This document shows positions 4,140 to 31,317 of a stretch of 37,643 nucleotides of DNA, piece by piece. This DNA comes from a virus, in the IMG/VR virus record IMGVR_UViG_3300047629_000010, positions 1-37,643 of that record, one strand, 5' to 3'. The position numbers and the translations under genes were made by a program. The notes below the pieces were generated by a model. It did no database searches. It saw only the letters and a list, made by a program, of their open reading frames with translations, and was not told the DNA's origin. Position 1 is the first letter of the stretch; every line of letters begins with the position of its first letter.

Positions 4140-4370
4140 ATGCACACAACGAAATCCTGTAAGCAAAACAGTACGGTTGATCCGGGTTGTTTCTTTTGCG
4201 GCGGCCCTTATGAATCGTCGCTTATCTACGAGTGCGGCAATAACGCAGAGCTGACCGCCGCTGTTGATATGTGCGCTCCGTGTTGGCAAGCGTTCGAGGA
4301 CGATGAGGACGGTTTCAAGGAGCGTCACGCCAAGGATTTCGAGACGATCGAAAACGAGCTGGCCCGATGA
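4140..4370 (+). CDS. Small putative zinc-binding protein
   Basis: A 76-residue protein with CFFCGG near residue 17 and CAPCW near residue 45, two CxxC pairs that could bind one zinc. An acidic helical C-terminus follows. The stop overlaps the next ATG. No specific family was recognised. Confidence 0.58.
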   Translation: MHTTKSCKQNSTVDPGCFFCGGPYESSLIYECGNNAELTAAVDMCAPCWQAFEDDEDGFKERHAKDFETIENELAR

Positions 4371-4723
4371 CCCCGCCCCAAGGAGATTCGGGAGAGAGCG
4401 TTTCAAATCCTGAGAAAAATTACACCACACAGGTTTCCGAAGAAATTCTCGCTTGTCGAAAATCCTGTGCTGAACAGGGTAAAGAATGTCGTTATAGCGG
4501 GATCGACGCGGTAGGGGCCGTGATGTACCTCGAAGGACGCTCCTCCCGAGACGAAGAGGTGAAGGCGCTGGGAAGGAAGGTGGCGGCGTATCGGCAGACG
4601 GCAATAAATCAAGCCACCGTCGATTGTTCCTGTCATAGCACGGGAGATTCAAAAAGTTGCTTGGCGATGTGTACTCAAGAAGTCGACGCCGAAGCCCAGC
4701 GGATCATAGAGGCCGGGAAGTAA
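4367..4723 (+). CDS. Hypothetical Cys-rich protein
   Basis: A 118-residue protein that overlaps the preceding stop (ATGA). It contains at least six cysteines in pairs (ACRKSC, DCSC, CLAMC) within helical, charged sequence. These could form disulphides or bind metal. It closes the early operon and is followed by the structured RNA element. No signal peptide is visible and no family was recognised. Confidence 0.55.
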   Translation: MTPPQGDSGESVSNPEKNYTTQVSEEILACRKSCAEQGKECRYSGIDAVGAVMYLEGRSSRDEEVKALGRKVAAYRQTAINQATVDCSCHSTGDSKSCLAMCTQEVDAEAQRIIEAGK

Positions 4724-4732
4724 ATAAGATTT

Positions 4733-4867
4733 GCGGTGGCGGCGTGGAAGGACACGCTATGACAAGCTAGGCGACTAGCGACAGGAGAGCGTAATCAAGT
4801 GCCGCTGAAAGGCGTACCGCTCGAAGCTCGGAAAGTCGCCAAGCCGGTATCAAGCCCGGCCCACCGC
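4733..4867 (+). ncRNA. Structured, tRNA-like RNA element
   Basis: GCGGTGG (4733..4739) pairs with CCACCGC (4861..4867), giving a 7-bp closing stem. Directly before the 3' strand, with no unpaired base, lies a T-arm-like hairpin: GCCGG (4843..4847), loop TATCAAGC, CCGGC (4856..4860). GCGT/ACGC (4742..4745/4754..4757) forms a D-arm-like hairpin. GGCGACT (4770..4776) can pair with AGTCGCC (4834..4840), enclosing GAGCG/CGCTC. The text resembles a class II (Leu-like) tRNA, but there is no anticodon arm, the T-loop has 8 bases and the total is 135. It is tRNA-derived or tRNA-mimicking; the function is unknown. Confidence 0.5.
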
Positions 4868-4901
4868 ATCAATTTCTCTAATACTCAGTGTGAGGTGAAG
4901 T

Positions 4902-5294
4902 GTGAATCTAAAAACAGATCAGCGTCGTTACAAGATTTTCGAGGATGAATCCTACGCCGTCGAAAAAGAGCCGGGCAAAACATCGGAAGCGTGGCGCTAC
5001 TACGAACTGCGCGGGAACAACGGCTACATCTACTCCTATTCGGCGGACTTTCTCGGTGTCGTTATCACGGCTCCGCGCGTGACCGAAAAGGTAAAAAAGG
5101 CGTTCGATTGGCCGGTTCTCCAGTCGGGAACCGATGAAACGACCTTCAAGGTCCCCGATAACCATTTTGAACACGCCGCCCGATTCGTGAAACCGAGGCG
5201 AAAACGCATCGTAAGCCCGGGCGCCGCGTTACGCCTCGCCAAGTTTCAATTTAAACCGTCTGAGGCGTCTGATGGGCGGGAAGTGCCGCTTTGA
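4902..5294 (+). CDS. Hypothetical protein
   Basis: A 130-residue protein starting at GTG, with AGGTGAAG just upstream. The sequence is mixed alpha/beta: an N-terminal strand region around YKIFEDESYAVEKE and a YSYSADFLGVV core. The C-terminus is basic (KPRRKRIVSPGAALRLAKFQF). No conserved motif was recognised. It is the first gene after the structured RNA element. Its stop overlaps a TTG start for the next gene. Confidence 0.6.
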   Translation: MNLKTDQRRYKIFEDESYAVEKEPGKTSEAWRYYELRGNNGYIYSYSADFLGVVITAPRVTEKVKKAFDWPVLQSGTDETTFKVPDNHFEHAARFVKPRRKRIVSPGAALRLAKFQFKPSEASDGREVPL

Positions 5295-5425
5295 AGTTCT
5301 GGCTCTCCCTCGCCACCCTCTACGCCCTCTTCCTCTTCGGTGTCTACCGGGAGGCGGTCAGGTACACACCGGGGATCGCGGTTTGGGTTCAGGTCAACGA
5401 CGGCCTCCACAAACTTAAGAAATAG
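5291..5425 (+). CDS. Small membrane protein (TTG start)
   Basis: A 44-residue ORF using TTG, which overlaps the preceding TGA (TTGA), the coupling pattern used throughout this genome. Residues 2 to 18 (KFWLSLATLYALFLFGV) form one membrane segment. The rest is short and amphipathic. No family was recognised. Confidence 0.5.
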   Translation: MKFWLSLATLYALFLFGVYREAVRYTPGIAVWVQVNDGLHKLKK

Positions 5426-5460: not shown

Positions 5461-5592
5461 GTGACCCGATCCTATCCCCATCAAAATAAACACGCTTCGA
5501 CGACAGTTTTTGATCGTCGGTGCGGCCATGGATTGGGTCACGCCACCTCGGCCCCCGACGGTCATCTTTCTTTCAAGGATATTCAAGCGTGA
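5461..5592 (+). CDS. Possible small ORF upstream of the replication gene
   Basis: A 43-residue GTG ORF whose stop overlaps the GTG of the next gene (GTGA). Its sequence includes RRCGHGLGH, which recalls a short Cys/His phage protein class, but the typical C-terminal cysteines are missing. A loose promoter-like pair (TTGCAA at 5427, N17, AAAAAT) ends 5 bases before it. Evidence is weak; it may be leader sequence. A hairpin (5498..5519) lies inside it. Confidence 0.3.
   Translation: MTRSYPHQNKHASTTVFDRRCGHGLGHATSAPDGHLSFKDIQA
5498..5519. promoter_or_regulatory. 6-bp inverted repeat upstream of the replication gene
   Basis: CGACGA (5498..5503) and TCGTCG (5514..5519) are perfect complements around a T-rich 10-base spacer. 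The site lies 70 bases before the replication gene start. It could be an operator or an mRNA hairpin. No T-tract follows. Confidence 0.35.
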
Positions 5593-7112: not shown

Positions 7113-7822
7113 AAGCTTTTTTGAATGATGAGAAGGTCAAGGAACAATATCTCGGGCGCGTTCGCGCTCATGCGGCGGCTGACCAGTTGGTGAAAGGCCA
7201 GTACTGGAAGGACGGGAAGGGTTGCGCGGTTGGTTGCACCATCCACTCGAACGATCACTCAGCCTATGAATGCGAATTGGGAATCCCCCGAAGTATCGCT
7301 CGTCTCGAAGATGGAATCTTTGAAGGACTCCCGAACGATCTGGCGCAGACGTGGCCAGATCGGTTTTTGTCGGCCATTAAAATTGGCGCTGATCTGTCTC
7401 AGGTAACGGCGAAGTTCATGCTCTGGCTTTTGGCTGATCCGAAAGATGGAGTGATTAGGTTCGCCAAGAAAGAGAAAACGAAAGCGGCTATACAAATAGT
7501 GATCGACCTTTACGAGCGGAAGCTGAAAGGTGACGAACCAACAAGTGCGGAATGGATAAAAGCAAGAAACGCCGACGCCGCCGCCGCCTACGCCGCCGAC
7601 GCCGCCGACGCCTACGCCGCCTACGCCGCCTACGCCGCCGCCGACGCCGCCTACGCCGCCTACGCCGCCGACGCCGCCGACGCCTACGCCGCCTACGCCG
7701 CCTACGCCGCCTACGCCGCCGACGCCTACGCCGGCGGCGGCGCCGACGCCTACGCCGCCCGACATGCTCACTACGTTCGTATGTCCGAAAAACTTCTTGA
7801 GTTACTACGAGACGCGGCGTGA
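7109..7822 (+). CDS. Phage protein with Ala-Tyr/Asp low-complexity repeat domain
   Basis: This 237-residue protein starts at an ATG overlapping the previous stop, after a GGAGAAA site. Residues 1 to 150 form a folded domain, with QLVKGQYWKDGKGCAVGC at about 29 to 46. This N-terminus recurs in environmental phage proteins that also carry alanine-rich repeats. Residues about 153 to 217 are made almost only of Ala, Tyr and Asp (units such as AAYAADAADAY), encoded by GCC, TAC and GAC. A short helical C-terminus (YVRMSEKLLELLRDAA) follows. The function is unknown. Confidence 0.7.
   Translation: MKAFLNDEKVKEQYLGRVRAHAAADQLVKGQYWKDGKGCAVGCTIHSNDHSAYECELGIPRSIARLEDGIFEGLPNDLAQTWPDRFLSAIKIGADLSQVTAKFMLWLLADPKDGVIRFAKKEKTKAAIQIVIDLYERKLKGDEPTSAEWIKARNADAAAAYAADAADAYAAYAAYAAADAAYAAYAADAADAYAAYAAYAAYAADAYAGGGADAYAARHAHYVRMSEKLLELLRDAA
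7567..7760 (+). repeat. GCC/TAC/GAC codon-scale low-complexity repeat
   Basis: About 190 bases consist of GCC codons with TAC or GAC every second or third codon, plus a short GGC run near 7731. It encodes Ala with Tyr or Asp. The opposite strand reads as long poly-Arg or Gly/Val frames, which are artefacts. Copy number may be misassembled. Confidence 0.9.
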
Positions 7823-7935
7823 AACCGTTCGCGTGTTGCGACTGCCGGGCAGAATTCGGAATCCGCTTTGTAGCGGTCCTCCACGCTTTCTTTACTCGGC
7901 ATCTGATGATCGAAAAACAAGGAGAGAAGAGATGA
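7819..7935 (+). CDS. Possible tiny CxxC protein overlapping the pilin-like gene
   Basis: A 38-residue ORF with GTG overlapping the previous stop and a TGA overlapping the next ATG. That double coupling is the rule in this genome. The N-terminus has FACCDCRAEFG. Its end is encoded by the first copy of the repeated leader cassette (7898..7928). It may only serve to deliver ribosomes to the next start. Confidence 0.42.
   Translation: MKPFACCDCRAEFGIRFVAVLHAFFTRHLMIEKQGEKR
7898..7928 (+). repeat. Leader cassette copy 1 (of three)
   Basis: A 31-base segment beginning GGCATCTGATGAT and ending in a GGAGAG Shine-Dalgarno recurs identically at 8331..8361. A diverged copy is at 8954..8981. Each lies just before a start codon (7932, 8364, 8988), so the three genes share a duplicated ribosome-binding region. 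Confidence 0.85.
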
Positions 7936-8324
7936 AAAAAGGTTTCACGCTTATTGAGCTGATGATTGTCGTGGCGATTATTGGGATTCTGGCGGCGGTC
8001 ATCGTCCCGAGTGTCGGTGTGATCACGATCATGCCGCACTACTCCGACGGAGAGCGGACGGGCGTTGTCGTCAAGTTGAGTAAGAAGGGCGTCGTCTGGA
8101 AAACGTGGGAAGGCGCGATGAACATCGGGTCAATGTCTACGGATGGGAACGGTGTTGCGGTTCCGACGGTGTTCGAGTTTTCGGTGAAGGACGATGCGCT
8201 TGCCGAAGAAATTTCCGAATCGGCGCGCGCCGGGAAAAGGGTCACGCTTGTTTATGAACAGGCTTTGATGCGCTCGCGGCGAGATGGGGACACGCCCTAC
8301 CTGATCGTGTCGGTTAAGAAGTGA
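7932..8324 (+). CDS. Prepilin-signal fusion to a bacterial YSDG/KTWEG envelope domain
   Basis: This 130-residue protein begins MKKGFTLIELMIVVAIIGIL. That is a full type IV prepilin leader: cleavage after Gly4, Phe at +1, Glu at +5 (Glu9) and a roughly 20-residue hydrophobic helix. Residues 37 to 130 do not look like a pilin head. They match a conserved bacterial membrane-anchored protein family marked by YSDGERTGVVVKLSKKG and VWKTWEG, sometimes mislabelled 6-phosphogluconate dehydrogenase. The phage product should be processed by a host prepilin peptidase or stay anchored in the inner membrane. Its start has a strong GGAGAG site in the repeated leader cassette. Confidence 0.82.
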   Translation: MKKGFTLIELMIVVAIIGILAAVIVPSVGVITIMPHYSDGERTGVVVKLSKKGVVWKTWEGAMNIGSMSTDGNGVAVPTVFEFSVKDDALAEEISESARAGKRVTLVYEQALMRSRRDGDTPYLIVSVKK

Positions 8325-8363: not shown

Positions 8364-8726
8364 ATGTCTGAAAAAGTACGAGTTCAGGAGTTGACGATTG
8401 ACGGCGAGGTGTACGTTCCGAAGAACAGTGTTCCCGTTGTTGAAGGGGATTACTTCATCGTTCGCACTTATTCCGCTGGTGTGTTCGCTGGCGAGATCGT
8501 GAGCAGGAACGGGAAAGAAGTCGTGATGAAGAACGCGCGGCGGTTGTGGTACTGGACGGGCGCGGCTTCCCTTTCTCAGTTGGTTGTCGAAGGAACGAAC
8601 AATCCTTCTCAGTGTAAATTCCCCGTCGCCGTTCCGCGCGTGGAGTTGACTGAGGCCATCGAGATTCTTGACGTGACCGCGAAGGCCCGAAAGAGCATCG
8701 AGAGCGTGAAGATATGGGAAGCGTAG
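8364..8726 (+). CDS. DUF6948-like phage protein
   Basis: A 120-residue protein with the recognisable core FIVRTYSAGVFAGEI, then VVMKNARRLWYWTGAASLSQL and a CKFPVAVP segment. This pattern matches the phage family I know as DUF6948. It has no established function and is often found next to glycine-rich repeat ORFs, as here. The gene ends inside the start of the Gly-Ser/Asp repeat ORF. It uses the second leader cassette for translation. Confidence 0.72.
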   Translation: MSEKVRVQELTIDGEVYVPKNSVPVVEGDYFIVRTYSAGVFAGEIVSRNGKEVVMKNARRLWYWTGAASLSQLVVEGTNNPSQCKFPVAVPRVELTEAIEILDVTAKARKSIESVKIWEA

Positions 8727-8962
8727 AAGCCAACGGGTCCGGGTCCGGGTCCGGGTCCGGGGACGGGTCCGGGGACGGGTCCGGGTACGGGGACGGGGAC
8801 GGGTACGGGTACGGGTCCGGGGACGGGTCCGGGTCCGGGGACGGGTCCGGGTCCGGGGACGGGTCCGGGTCCGGGGACGGGTCCGGGTCCGGGGACGGGT
8901 CCGGGTCCGGGGACGGGTACGGGTCCGGGGACGGGTCCGGGGACGGGTCGAAGGGCATCTGA
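8714..8962 (+). CDS. Gly-Ser/Asp/Tyr repeat protein
   Basis: This 82-residue ORF consists almost entirely of Gly alternating with Ser, Asp or Tyr (for example GSGSGDGSGDGSGYGDG), encoded by GGG with TCC, GAC or TAC. It begins at an ATG inside the previous gene and lacks a clear ribosome-binding site, so it may be translated by coupling. Similar repeat ORFs follow DUF6948-like genes in other phages as I recall, which supports it being real. It should be disordered; a sticky or phase-separating role is speculation. Confidence 0.6.
   Translation: MGSVEANGSGSGSGSGDGSGDGSGYGDGDGYGYGSGDGSGSGDGSGSGDGSGSGDGSGSGDGSGSGDGYGSGDGSGDGSKGI
8737..8949 (+). repeat. GGG-TCC/GAC/TAC codon-scale low-complexity repeat
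   Basis: About 210 bases alternate GGG with TCC, GAC or TAC. A recurring larger unit is GGGTCCGGGTCCGGGGAC. As in the repeat at 7567, the variable codons include TAC and GAC. Copy number may be unreliable in a short-read assembly. Confidence 0.9.
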
Positions 8963-23002: not shown

Positions 23003-23770
23003 GGAATCTGATATAAAGGCATATGGCAACAGCGAAATATCATCGAGAGTGGAGAATGAAAAACCCTGAGAAATCGGCGGCATACCAGCGGGATTACAAG
23101 AAACGTAATTTCGCCAAATTGCAGGCGTATCAGAAAGCCTATCGCGCCGCTCATCAGGGTCGTCATAATGAGACGAACGAGGTCTGGAAGAAAAACAATC
23201 CAGAGCTTCATAAAGAGCTACAGGCTTTTTATCGAGGCACCCTCCGGGGCCGTTATTCTCATTGCAAGTCGTCCGCGAAAACTCGCGGGATTCCTTGCAC
23301 TCTCACCTTCGAGCAGTACGCGCTCGTAGCGACGGAGCATTGTTACTATTGCGACGATCTGCTGATTGGGATTCACGGTACGGGGCTTGACCGCATTGAC
23401 GCACAAAAAGGTTATACCGCCGACAACGTGATTCCCTGCTGTTTCCGATGTAATCGGGTGAAAGGCCACGATCTGACCGTTGAAGAAACGAAGGTCATGG
23501 TGGACGCCCTCCTGAAGTATCGAAAGAAATTGCCCTCAATAAATCCCGAAATATCGGTGGATAGCCCACCAGCGAAAGCTGAGGCCAATACCGAGATAAT
23601 CCAACTTCCAACAAGGTTGGGCATCGTAGAGCGTAGCTGTGAAACTCCTGAGAGGGAGAATATAACCAGCCACGAGTCCGGGACACCGCCTACCAGCGGT
23701 GAAAATGTACGCCAGACTGCCGAGTAATCGGTAGAGGCGGAGATAAAAAACTCCGCGTGAATACGAATCG
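23003..23770 (+). mobile_element. Group I intron in the major capsid gene, carrying an HNH endonuclease
   Basis: The intron is 768 bases. The exon 1 end TGAGGGT (22996..23002) pairs over 7 bp with GCCCTCA (23532..23538), with the required wobble T23002.G23532: this is P1. The three bases before it, ATT (23529..23531), pair with AAT (23771..23773), the start of exon 2: this is P10. The intron ends in G23770. The 3' part is highly structured: GGTGG/CCACC (23556..23570), CAGC-GAAA-GCTG, CACCGC/GCGGTG, CCGA-GTAA-TCGG (23720..23731) and GCGGAG/CTCCGC (23737..23756). I could not place P3/P7 by eye, so the subclass is open. Confidence 0.85.
23023..23727 (+). CDS. Intron-encoded HNH homing endonuclease
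   Basis: A 234-residue protein. Residues 1 to 70 are basic helices with repeats (YHREWRMKNPEK, YQRDYKKRN) that probably bind DNA. Residues about 105 to 150 hold the HNH site: HCYYCDDLL, GTGLDRID and GYTADNVIPCCFRCNRVKG, with the zinc cysteines and the catalytic region. The enzyme would cut intron-free capsid genes near the insertion point and so spread the intron. The last about 70 residues run through the intron core and look unlike protein, so function probably needs only the first 165 or so. Most of the ORF lies in the P1 loop. Confidence 0.85.
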   Translation: MATAKYHREWRMKNPEKSAAYQRDYKKRNFAKLQAYQKAYRAAHQGRHNETNEVWKKNNPELHKELQAFYRGTLRGRYSHCKSSAKTRGIPCTLTFEQYALVATEHCYYCDDLLIGIHGTGLDRIDAQKGYTADNVIPCCFRCNRVKGHDLTVEETKVMVDALLKYRKKLPSINPEISVDSPPAKAEANTEIIQLPTRLGIVERSCETPERENITSHESGTPPTSGENVRQTAE

Positions 23771-28359: not shown

Positions 28360-30854
28360 TGACGATGACGCTCAACAATTTGGGCCTGTTCACTTACGCC
28401 AACTCGCTCAGTCAGGTTCCCCCGGGCGCGATGCTCGCGGCCTTGAACGTCGTGATCGACAAGCCGGGGATTGCAGAGACTCGTCGAGGGATGGATCAGT
28501 TCGGCACCCTGCTTTCCACGCCCATCTACAAGATGTTCGCGTTCCAGAATCGTCTGCTCGCGCACCATTCCAACTCTCTGGCCTATGACTCCGATGGAAA
28601 CGGGACGTGGGTTGATTACGCGGGAACGTTCGTCGCTCCGACGGGCGAAAGGATGAGATCGACGCAGGCGAACAAGAATTTCTACTTCACCACGAACAAC
28701 GGCGTCTACAAGATCGACACGCTGACGAACAACCCCTATCCGGCGGGAGGGATCGCCGCTTTGGACGTGACCGCTTCCGCGACGGGATCTTCTGGATTTC
28801 TGAACGACACGTCCCAGTGCGCTTACCGGATCACATGGGTCTACACGGACGCGGAAAACAATCTGATCGAAGGCGCGCCGTCGATGGCGGCTTCTTTGTC
28901 GAACAACAGCGGTCATGCGGTGAACGCTTCGGTGACATTCACGGTTCCGCAGGGCGTGACGACGGCTTTCTCGTACCGCGTTTACCGGACTCCGCAGACG
29001 GGATCGTTGTCGATTCCTCCCGGAGACACATTCCAGCTTGCGTTCGTGGGCCAGCCGACAGGCGGGCAGATTTCCGCGCTCTCCGTGACGATTACGGACG
29101 TGACGCCGGATTTGCTTCTGGGACTCACGCTTTATACGTCCCCCGGCCAGCAGGGAGAATTCCAGACGAACAACCCGCCTCCCCTCTGTAAAGACCTCTG
29201 TACGTTTCTTGGGATGACGTTTTATTTCAACTGCTCGACGTTGCAGAGCTTCTACACGGCGTTGATTTCCGTCGGTTCACCGAATGGAATTCAGGTGGGA
29301 GATACATTCACGATTGTCCTGAACAACGGAGGAGGGCCGACGCTGACGTACACGGGCGCTTCGTCCAACAACTTCGCTTCTCAGCAGTTCAAGGTGGACA
29401 CCTCGGGAACCGTCGCCACGAACATCGACGCGACCGCGAGAAATCTCGTGGCCGCCATCAACCAAGATCCCACGAATTCCAAGGTCTACGCCTATTACAT
29501 TTCCGGTTTCACCGAGCTTCCCGGCCAGATCGTGTTACAGAATAGGAACCTGTTCGATATCGCGTTCCTGCCGAACTGTTCTCGTACCGGCGTGTTCTCG
29601 AATATCACTGACGGAACCACGCCTTCGACGAACAACACGGTGAAGAATGGCGTCTATGTCTCCAAGGTTTCCCAACCGGAAGCGGTTCCGACCGTGAACT
29701 TGATTTTCGTCGGCTCAGGGGATCAGGATATTTTCCGGGGATACGCGCTTCGGGATGCCGTGATCGTGGAATCTGCCGGAGGTGTGTTCCGGATCACCGG
29801 AACCAGCCCCGATTCTCTCGTGGTCACTCCGTTCGATAACACGGTCATTCAGTTCGGCAACGAAACCGGCGTCCCCCTGAACAACTCCGTTTATTCCTTC
29901 ACGTCTCAGGGCATTGTCTCCATCACGGAAAGCGGGTCCCAGATCATGTCCAGAAACATCGAAGGCGATTTGCTCCAACTCTCGACGCCCCAACTTTATC
30001 CGTCGTTCAAGTCTATCGCGTTCGGCGTTTCTTACGAATCCGACCGGAAATACATCCTTGCCTTGGCTTCGGGAACGAGCGACACGGTTTCTACCCTTCA
30101 GTTCGTCTACAACTGGATCACGCAGGCTTTCTCGACGTGGGACTTCTCCATCACGGCGGGCATCGTGAATCCCGCGACGAACCTTCTCTACTTCGCAGGA
30201 GACGATGGGCAGGTTCTTCAAGAGCGCAAGACCTATACCTTGACTGATTACGTGGACCGCCACTGGTCCGTGGCGATTCTCAGCAATGCGGGCCTCGTCA
30301 TCACGCTCGATTCCGTGGCTCACGCGCAGGTGGGATACTTTCTGGCGCAGGGTGTGGGTTCGGGATCGGTCCAGCTTTCCTCGGAGATCACCGCCGTCGA
30401 TACCGTCGCCAAGACCGTGACCGTGACGGACCTTCTCAACTGGACCGACGACACCGCAGGCATTTACCAGCCGATTGACTCCCAGATCACCTACTGCCCC
30501 CTGACTTGTGGATACCCGAACTTCATCAAGCGGTTCCAGCCCGTCATCCAGTTCATTTTCTCAGAATCGACTTTCGAGGAAGCGACAGTTTCGTTTACGA
30601 CCGATTTCTACACGACCGCCGAGAGCGTGACGCTTTCCCCGAACCTCTCTGGAGGATGGGGGACGTTCCCGTGGGGGACTCTGCCGTGGGGTGTCGCGGG
30701 GACGCCGCTTCAACTCATTCCGACGTATTTGACCAAAAACACCACGCTCGGACACTGGCTGAATATCTCGGTGGAGCTTCGGCAGGCGTTCCAGAATTTA
30801 TCGTTAAATGGGTGCAGTGGCTACTTCGACATTATTGCAGAACGGAGCCGATAA
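28356..30854 (+). CDS. Tail nozzle / stabilisation-like structural protein
   Basis: An 832-residue, almost entirely beta protein with overlapping ATGA start. The N-terminal text (LNNLGLFTYANSLSQVPPGAMLAALNVVIDKPG, with GxxxTRRG) is the phage stabilisation / nozzle pattern: 'gain of ALNV..D.PG..ETR'. Several beta-propeller-like repeats follow (LLAHHSNSLAYDSDG, NFYFTTNNGVYKIDT, YILALASGTSD). In podoviruses such proteins close the DNA channel below the adaptor. It is the largest gene in the window. An HNH gene follows one base after its stop. Confidence 0.75.
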   Translation: MMTMTLNNLGLFTYANSLSQVPPGAMLAALNVVIDKPGIAETRRGMDQFGTLLSTPIYKMFAFQNRLLAHHSNSLAYDSDGNGTWVDYAGTFVAPTGERMRSTQANKNFYFTTNNGVYKIDTLTNNPYPAGGIAALDVTASATGSSGFLNDTSQCAYRITWVYTDAENNLIEGAPSMAASLSNNSGHAVNASVTFTVPQGVTTAFSYRVYRTPQTGSLSIPPGDTFQLAFVGQPTGGQISALSVTITDVTPDLLLGLTLYTSPGQQGEFQTNNPPPLCKDLCTFLGMTFYFNCSTLQSFYTALISVGSPNGIQVGDTFTIVLNNGGGPTLTYTGASSNNFASQQFKVDTSGTVATNIDATARNLVAAINQDPTNSKVYAYYISGFTELPGQIVLQNRNLFDIAFLPNCSRTGVFSNITDGTTPSTNNTVKNGVYVSKVSQPEAVPTVNLIFVGSGDQDIFRGYALRDAVIVESAGGVFRITGTSPDSLVVTPFDNTVIQFGNETGVPLNNSVYSFTSQGIVSITESGSQIMSRNIEGDLLQLSTPQLYPSFKSIAFGVSYESDRKYILALASGTSDTVSTLQFVYNWITQAFSTWDFSITAGIVNPATNLLYFAGDDGQVLQERKTYTLTDYVDRHWSVAILSNAGLVITLDSVAHAQVGYFLAQGVGSGSVQLSSEITAVDTVAKTVTVTDLLNWTDDTAGIYQPIDSQITYCPLTCGYPNFIKRFQPVIQFIFSESTFEEATVSFTTDFYTTAESVTLSPNLSGGWGTFPWGTLPWGVAGTPLQLIPTYLTKNTTLGHWLNISVELRQAFQNLSLNGCSGYFDIIAERSR

Positions 30855-30855
30855 A

Positions 30856-31317
30856 ATGCCCTTCAAAGACCCCATTAAGAGACGAGAATATCACAGAGAA
30901 GCGACCCGACGTTTTCGAGAGAAGAACCCCGAACGTGCCAGAGAATTGGGCCGTATCAGCGACCGGAAGCGCTATCACAAGAGGCGCGCGGCGCAAAAAA
31001 TCTATCAACTTGAATGGCAACGGAAAAACAGGATAAAAAATCGTCTTTATAGCGTGAAATGGTTGTATGGCCTGACGCCAGTTGAATATGACCGTCTCTA
31101 TCAGGTTCAACAGGGTGCGTGTGCAATTTGCCATCGACATCAAACAGATATCAAAAGAACACTTCAAGTCGATCATTGCCACAAAACTGGACGGGTTCGG
31201 GGCCTTCTTTGTCTCCAATGTAATCTGTACGTGGGAGCTTTTGAGCGCGGCCAAAACCTGACCGTCGCCGTTCTCGTTGATCAGATCAAAAAATATCTGG
31301 ATGGACCGAATGGGTAG
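30856..31317 (+). CDS. Free-standing HNH / endonuclease VII-like homing endonuclease
   Basis: A 153-residue protein. Basic N-terminal helices (KRREYHREATRRFREKNPERA) are followed at about residues 70 to 140 by YGLTPVEYDRLYQVQQGACAIC, LQVDHCHKTGRVRGLLCLQCN. This is the recombination endonuclease VII fold: four zinc cysteines and a DHCH catalytic core. The flanking genes are both complete, so it is not in an intron. ATG 30856 is chosen because an in-frame ATG at 30808 lies deep in the nozzle gene. The end overlaps the downstream tail gene. Confidence 0.85.
   Translation: MPFKDPIKRREYHREATRRFREKNPERARELGRISDRKRYHKRRAAQKIYQLEWQRKNRIKNRLYSVKWLYGLTPVEYDRLYQVQQGACAICHRHQTDIKRTLQVDHCHKTGRVRGLLCLQCNLYVGAFERGQNLTVAVLVDQIKKYLDGPNG

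Follow-up and report, generated by a model that had tools for sequence, protein, structure and literature searches.

An unannotated tRNA-like element in a viral genome

What is the structured element that sits in a short gene-free gap of a viral genome and resembles a tRNA at its ends but not in its middle? The question is raised by positions 4733-4867 of a 37.6-kb virus record (IMGVR_UViG_3300047629_000010), the whole of which (37,643 nt) was analysed and is hereafter called the window. An earlier note had described a 7-bp closing stem, a D-arm-like hairpin and a T-arm-like hairpin stacked directly on the closing stem, with an alternative structure instead of the anticodon arm, and had considered a tmRNA-like RNA, a decayed tRNA-Leu, a tRNA mimic or a processing signal. 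The observation itself is confirmed and was understated, whereas its interpretation as a whole is partly supported. The element indeed occupies a gene-free gap, which is 178 nt long and lies between two ORFs of the plus strand, for neither of which convincing relatives were found in the homology searches made. Its parts are as follows.

4724..4901, plus strand: gene-free gap with the element, between ORF 4367-4723 and ORF 4902-5294, each on the plus strand
4733..4739, plus strand: closing (acceptor-like) stem, 5' strand, 7 bp, GCGGTGG; its partner is 4861-4867
4740..4741, plus strand: linker CG, 2 nt, in the place of tRNA positions 8-9; in the family, C in 99% and G or A in 100%
4742..4757, plus strand: D-arm GCGTG-GAAGGA-CACGC, 5 bp with a 6-nt loop; near-invariant in the family, save one A/T loop position
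4758..4841, plus strand: variable core, 84 nt, similar to none of the other cores compared
4770-4776/4834-4840, plus strand: long arm in the core, with inner hairpins, as predicted by a folding program
4842..4842, plus strand: A directly 5' of the T-arm; A in 99% of members
4843..4860, plus strand: T-arm GCCGG-TATCAAGC-CCGGC, 5 bp with an 8-nt loop; loop WATCAAGN near-universal in members, stem pairs 1-3 covary
4861..4867, plus strand: closing stem, 3' strand, CCACCGC, stacked straight under the T-arm; CCA not encoded

The closing stem and both hairpins are thus present as described. For the D-arm of the window, the folding program adds a sixth pair that draws on the linker, while the family D-arm consists of 5 bp after a 2-nt linker. 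The predicted fold of the complete element has an energy of -58.3 kcal/mol (z -3.3), which was equaled by 1 of 200 shuffles, and the opposite strand folds more weakly. Since the bare tRNA-like topology, searched with a loose descriptor, is also frequent in shuffled sequence (approximately 8 matches per strand), folding alone is no proof of the element; this proof is supplied by its relatives. Neither ARAGORN nor Rfam, both of which the earlier note had proposed as checks, matched the window element to tRNA, tmRNA or any other family.

A hairpin within the core, AGCTAGGCGACTAGCGACAG (4765-4784), has an exact 20-nt match in unannotated gaps of Kayfunavirus genomes (Dev2, 483-502; SFP20; GW1). 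With an E of about 2 and the frame absent there, this match is probably due to chance. Elsewhere in the window, an ORF at 7500-7820 carries a long Ala-Tyr-Asp repeat (AAYADAADAYAAYA...), encoded by repetitive DNA that is open in several frames, and an 82-aa ORF at 8714-8962 consists almost entirely of Gly-Ser/Gly-Asp repeats (GSGDGSGDG...), with long ORFs on the other strand as well. An ORF at 7764-8324 has the N-terminal signature of type IV pilins, which is unusual for a phage, and two ORFs among the structural genes (23023-23727 and 30808-31317) are candidates for free-standing HNH endonucleases, which they resemble.

A family of phage elements with a constant frame

Searches for DNA identity with the whole element gave no matches at normal thresholds. 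A blastn search with the gap at E values up to 10 returned short pieces of the D-arm or the T-arm in five phages. Their hosts are Komagataeibacter, Caulobacter, Pseudanabaena and Acidovorax, and each of the places is unannotated and has the same frame combined with different closing stems and different middles. A DNA pattern search for the D-loop and T-loop then identified at least 100 viral contigs and at least 100 bacterial genome contigs, and these matches split cleanly into a group with the pairing of the frame and chance matches without it. The resulting family comprises at least 150 distinct members in phages and prophages. A covariance model (R1) built from 46 relatives, with the window left out, matches 4733-4867 with 78.2 bits (E = 3e-15) and nothing else in the window.

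These homologs refute the view that the locus is a decayed class II tRNA, such as the tRNA-Leu considered earlier, or a chance structure. Although a loose topology of this kind is common in shuffled sequence and the outline of a class II tRNA is similar, we give this view practically no weight in the face of the match to an independent model, the covariation described below and the conservation, in at least 150 phages and prophages, of features that are not those of a tRNA: a T-loop of 8 nt, the D-arm and the lack of an anticodon arm. The extra T-loop base noted earlier is a trait of the family, and the absence of the anticodon arm likewise holds across the family.

Among 153 distinct members, the pairing frequency of the closing stem is 0.92-0.99 at exactly 7 positions and then falls to 0.77, 0.62 and 0.58. 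The linker reads CG or CA, and GCGTG-GAWGGA-CACGC occurs as the D-arm with next to no variation. GCCGG, GCAGG and GCTGG, each paired with its complement, account for most T-stems, which enclose the 8-nt loop WATCAAGC; throughout the family, the T-arm follows directly on the closing stem without a gap. The frame is near-invariant in sequence even in stems where pairing alone would suffice. CCA, which is added enzymatically in many bacteria, is encoded one nucleotide after the closing stem in only 5 of 148 members. Furthermore, in 113/148 members positions -1 and 73 form a pair, unlike in a normal pre-tRNA, which makes end processing of the tRNA type doubtful. In one group of members with CCATCA upstream (L119, L124, L132, L309, L332, L333 and others), an outer inverted repeat (CCATCA...TGATGG), which is conserved, lengthens the closing stem to about 15-18 bp, while the inner 7 bp vary from member to member.

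The family is absent from Rfam 15, and no description of it was found in the open-access literature, a search outside of which most subscription papers lie. It is apparently a new viral RNA family that had gone unnamed until now, apparently since the constant segments are short and an unrelated core interrupts them.

The frame is conserved as an RNA

In order to count base pairs, 148 members were used that had been picked regardless of their closing-stem or T-stem pairing. All 7 closing pairs are formed in 121 of these, and at least 6 of 7 in 141, with positions 1-6 of the stem using all four Watson-Crick combinations. The formal covariation count was based on 43 distinct frames, nearly all from this unfiltered list, plus the window. 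Within these frames, each of the 7 closing pairs changes on both sides, the covariation score is 0.586 (0.127 in shuffles, and 0.06-0.15 when the strands are slid), and 97.4% of the cells are paired, compared to 74.4% in shuffles. Pairs 1-3 of the T-stem covary as well. The absence of covariation had been named beforehand as an outcome that would speak against a functional element; its presence in the closing stem of the homologs bears out the expectation that the element is likely functional.

G-U pairs outnumber A-C pairs 46 to 15 (p = 9e-5), a bias expected of an RNA from this strand but neither of DNA nor of the opposite strand. Taken together, the substitution patterns show the frame to be conserved as RNA on this strand, under strong selection on its pairs. 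Between the D-loop and the T-loop, no covariation was detected (p = 0.47). A GG in the D-loop is invariant, and if one A is taken as inserted, the T-loop reads T-psi-C-A-A-G-C; in tRNA, G18 and G19 of the D-loop interact with T-loop residues 55 and 56 (PMC4810234). Since the loops do not covary, a tRNA-like elbow contact is assumed from this resemblance.

The core is exchanged between phages

The core, which extends from the D-arm to the T-arm, is 48-145 nt long (median about 83), and 132 of 158 elements, the window among them, have a core without a relative in the set. Two viral contigs, L333 and L109, are 95% and 98% identical over the 60 nt on either side of the element and share identical closing stems and T-stems, but their cores are unrelated, with 51% identity against a background of 53% and lengths of 51 and 70 nt. 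Unrelated cores were found in 18 of the 27 pairs in which at least one flank is at least 75% identical. Moreover, a few cores recur under different closing stems (L143/L343, 92% identity; L157/L207, 85%; L331/L333, 88%). At the level of sequence, these comparisons show cassette-like swapping of the core between phages, with the frame and the genomic surroundings left in place.

As to the content of the cores, GNRA hairpins are present in 22 of them compared to 9.6 in shuffles, and a canonical tRNA T-arm lies inside 9/156 (0.28 expected). The core of L114 contains a full tRNA-Ser(GGA) (59.8 bits), another core a tRNA-like sequence (34.9 bits), and the two matches that ARAGORN returned for 153 elements each correspond to a tRNA-like sequence inside the core. 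The element lies at 2230-2384 of L114, which belongs to a 62-kb virus record (G011); this record also encodes a TROVE (Ro60-like) protein at 40103-40693 and is alone in this among the 60 virus records searched. Where cores are related, pairs have changed on both sides in 13 cases and on one side in 8, and are broken in 18, of which 14 fall in one poorly alignable trio. The folding energy of the cores is slightly better than that of shuffles (mean z -0.48; reverse complement, -0.40), and given this weak signal, many cores may be little structured. A fold common to the cores was not seen, matches between a core and the rest of its own locus were absent, and none of the cores could be linked to a target.

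Genomic context and distribution

All annotated members that were examined are intergenic. Annotated phages with a member include Caulobacter phage DMCA, Komagataeibacter phage phiKX2, Acidovorax phage AP1 and Alcaligenes phage QDWS595. Within 1 kb, tRNA genes on the same strand were found for 17 of 148 loci compared to 5 of 435 control windows, whereas the corresponding numbers for the opposite strand are 3/148 and 6/435. When longer ORFs are counted, 166 neighbors lie on the same strand and 101 on the opposite one. The nearest downstream proteins include the terminase large subunit, endolysins and RecT/ERF proteins, the nearest upstream proteins NusG-like antiterminators, integrases and proteins without known function. 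Among the nearest proteins, no constant neighbor or partner gene was found.

These surroundings bear on the possibility that the element acts in cis within a longer phage transcript, in processing, in antitermination or as a leader structure for neighboring genes. Such a role would fit the window copy, which is placed between two genes of the same direction, as well as the NusG-like antiterminators, the commonest upstream family (4/91), and the scarcity of terminator-like sites, which follow only 9/153 members. However, the first gene downstream points the other way in 50 of 136 loci and varies in identity among phages, and the exchange of the core alone would be left unexplained. We consider a role in cis rather unlikely, and the cis processing signal suggested earlier unlikely as well, because the next gene is so often on the opposite strand.

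A DNA-level site for cassette exchange, folded as single-stranded DNA and acted on by a recombinase in the manner of an integron attachment site, would account for constant ends around exchanged and mostly unrelated inserts, and some members do adjoin an integrase or transposase. Integrase neighbors are few, however (2/97 and 2/91), there is usually one insert per phage, the orientation of the element follows neighboring genes and tRNAs, and the excess of G-U over A-C pairs argues against DNA, which renders a site of this kind distinctly improbable.

Most phages carry one copy; two were found in L331 and L110. In L331, the elements are arranged in tandem (5274-5374 and 5476-5577), about 100 nt apart and with different cores, and the second has a deviant T-loop, TATCCAAC. 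The model scan identified the element in 10 of 200 genomes in the family of an Acetobacter and in 13 of 200 in the family of an Alcaligenes, i.e., in roughly 5-6% of the sampled genomes of two bacterial families, in addition to over a hundred viral contigs. In the stretches searched of phages related to the window by their terminase or replication protein, the element was absent, which makes it an accessory in the lineage of the window's phage.

Comparison with known RNAs

The frame shares with tRNA (RF00005) the 7-bp closing stem, the 2-nt linker, the D-arm and the directly stacked T-arm. In contrast to tRNA, the family has an unrelated core of 48-145 nt instead of the anticodon arm with its 7-nt loop, an 8-nt T-loop WATCAAGN in nearly all members instead of the 7-nt TTCRANY, and a position -1 that is usually paired with 73; the frame scored negative as a tRNA with both ARAGORN and Rfam. 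Few members encode CCA, which many bacteria supply enzymatically. tmRNA likewise combines tRNA-like ends with a long insert that replaces the anticodon arm. The tmRNA-like outline proposed earlier holds in this respect, but every other feature tested speaks against it: in the window, neither a match to the tmRNA model nor a tag reading frame was found, the ORFs around the element being short and unrelated, and the family core is unrelated between phages. Canonical tmRNA, moreover, lacks a D-stem.

The RNAs "species 1" (rnaC) and "species 2" (rnaD) of phage T4, 139 and 119 nt in length, are encoded together with tRNAs, and the 3' end of rnaC is a canonical tRNA T-arm. Unlike the family, rnaC has a T-loop of the ordinary 7 nt (TTCGAAT) and no counterpart of the conserved D-arm, and R1 found no match among the T4 tRNA-cluster RNAs (L345). 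The engineered tRNA scaffold is a laboratory vector in which a foreign RNA replaces the anticodon stem. It has the same design of constant acceptor, D and T arms around an arbitrary insert, but it is man-made and uses ordinary tRNA arms, whereas the family is natural and phage-borne and has arm sequences of its own.

The bacterial Y RNA YrlA, a partner of Ro60/Rsr, is a modular RNA in which one domain is similar to the acceptor arm, D-arm and T-arm of tRNA and whose 5' and 3' ends pair as a stem (PMC8394870). It is similar to the family in architecture only, with a basal stem bearing tRNA-like D and T arms and a length of 90-150 nt, and differs in that core exchange is unreported for YrlA in PMC8394870. 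The Y RNA families in Rfam gave no match, including at permissive thresholds applied to three members, and Ro60/Rsr (PF05731/TROVE) was found in only 2 of 98 carriers, one of 60 virus records, where the search covered the viral sequence, and one of 38 bacterial genomes. Without an Rfam match and with the Ro60 gene missing from nearly all carriers, membership in the Y RNAs was rejected. YrlA is thus nearest in architecture, and T4 species 1 is nearest in setting, not in sequence. Finally, the yjdF riboswitch is a bacterial RNA with an overall tRNA-like shape (PMC9142559). It acts in cis and its ligand domain is conserved, whereas the family has no conserved downstream gene or core. While tRNA-like RNAs as such are known, the combination of a constant tRNA-like frame with an exchanged core is apparently new in design.

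A candidate scaffold for interchangeable RNAs

Which part of the element is the active one? We consider it close to an even chance that the element is a free-standing phage RNA that serves as a natural tRNA scaffold for interchangeable payloads. The element would be transcribed as a free RNA, its D- and T-loops would meet to form a tRNA-like elbow, and the compact fold would protect the RNA, which may thereby become a client of host proteins that handle tRNAs. The core would be the payload, a small structured RNA and sometimes a whole tRNA, that acts on targets of the host or of rival phages; its rapid exchange would reflect different hosts or an arms race, and a dedicated phage protein would not be needed. 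We prefer this reading in view of the unit-like behavior of the cores and of the whole RNAs among their contents.

The main alternative arises from a conservation of the frame that exceeds what base pairing by itself would demand. As a tRNA mimic or decoy, the constant frame would be the active part and would tie up a host protein that binds the tRNA elbow, such as a tRNA-targeting defense nuclease, a modification enzyme or PNPase, and the core would be filler that varies freely or in order to escape recognition. The near-invariance of the frame, including stems that need pairing only, the enrichment beside phage tRNA genes, and cores with weak folding energy and no common fold would all be in line with a decoy. 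For mere filler, however, exchange as a whole unit, recurrence in other frames, compensatory changes and the presence of whole tRNAs would be unexpected, and we regard a decoy, with any of these host proteins as its partner, as unlikely, if less so than an action in cis.

Returning to the payload reading, its wider form would be a tRNA-like chassis that phages share and onto which functional RNAs, whole tRNAs included, are loaded and exchanged as cassettes, i.e., a modular payload system directed against hosts or their defenses without a dedicated protein; this form we put forward tentatively, as falling somewhat short of an even chance. The frame/core design gives the long-standing puzzle of the tRNA-associated stable RNAs of T4 something concrete to be compared with. 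If the core is the payload, the family would be the natural counterpart of the laboratory tRNA scaffold, and phage RNA effectors could be read from genomes by locating the frame and excising the core, with core exchange making their targets testable through the comparison of hosts.
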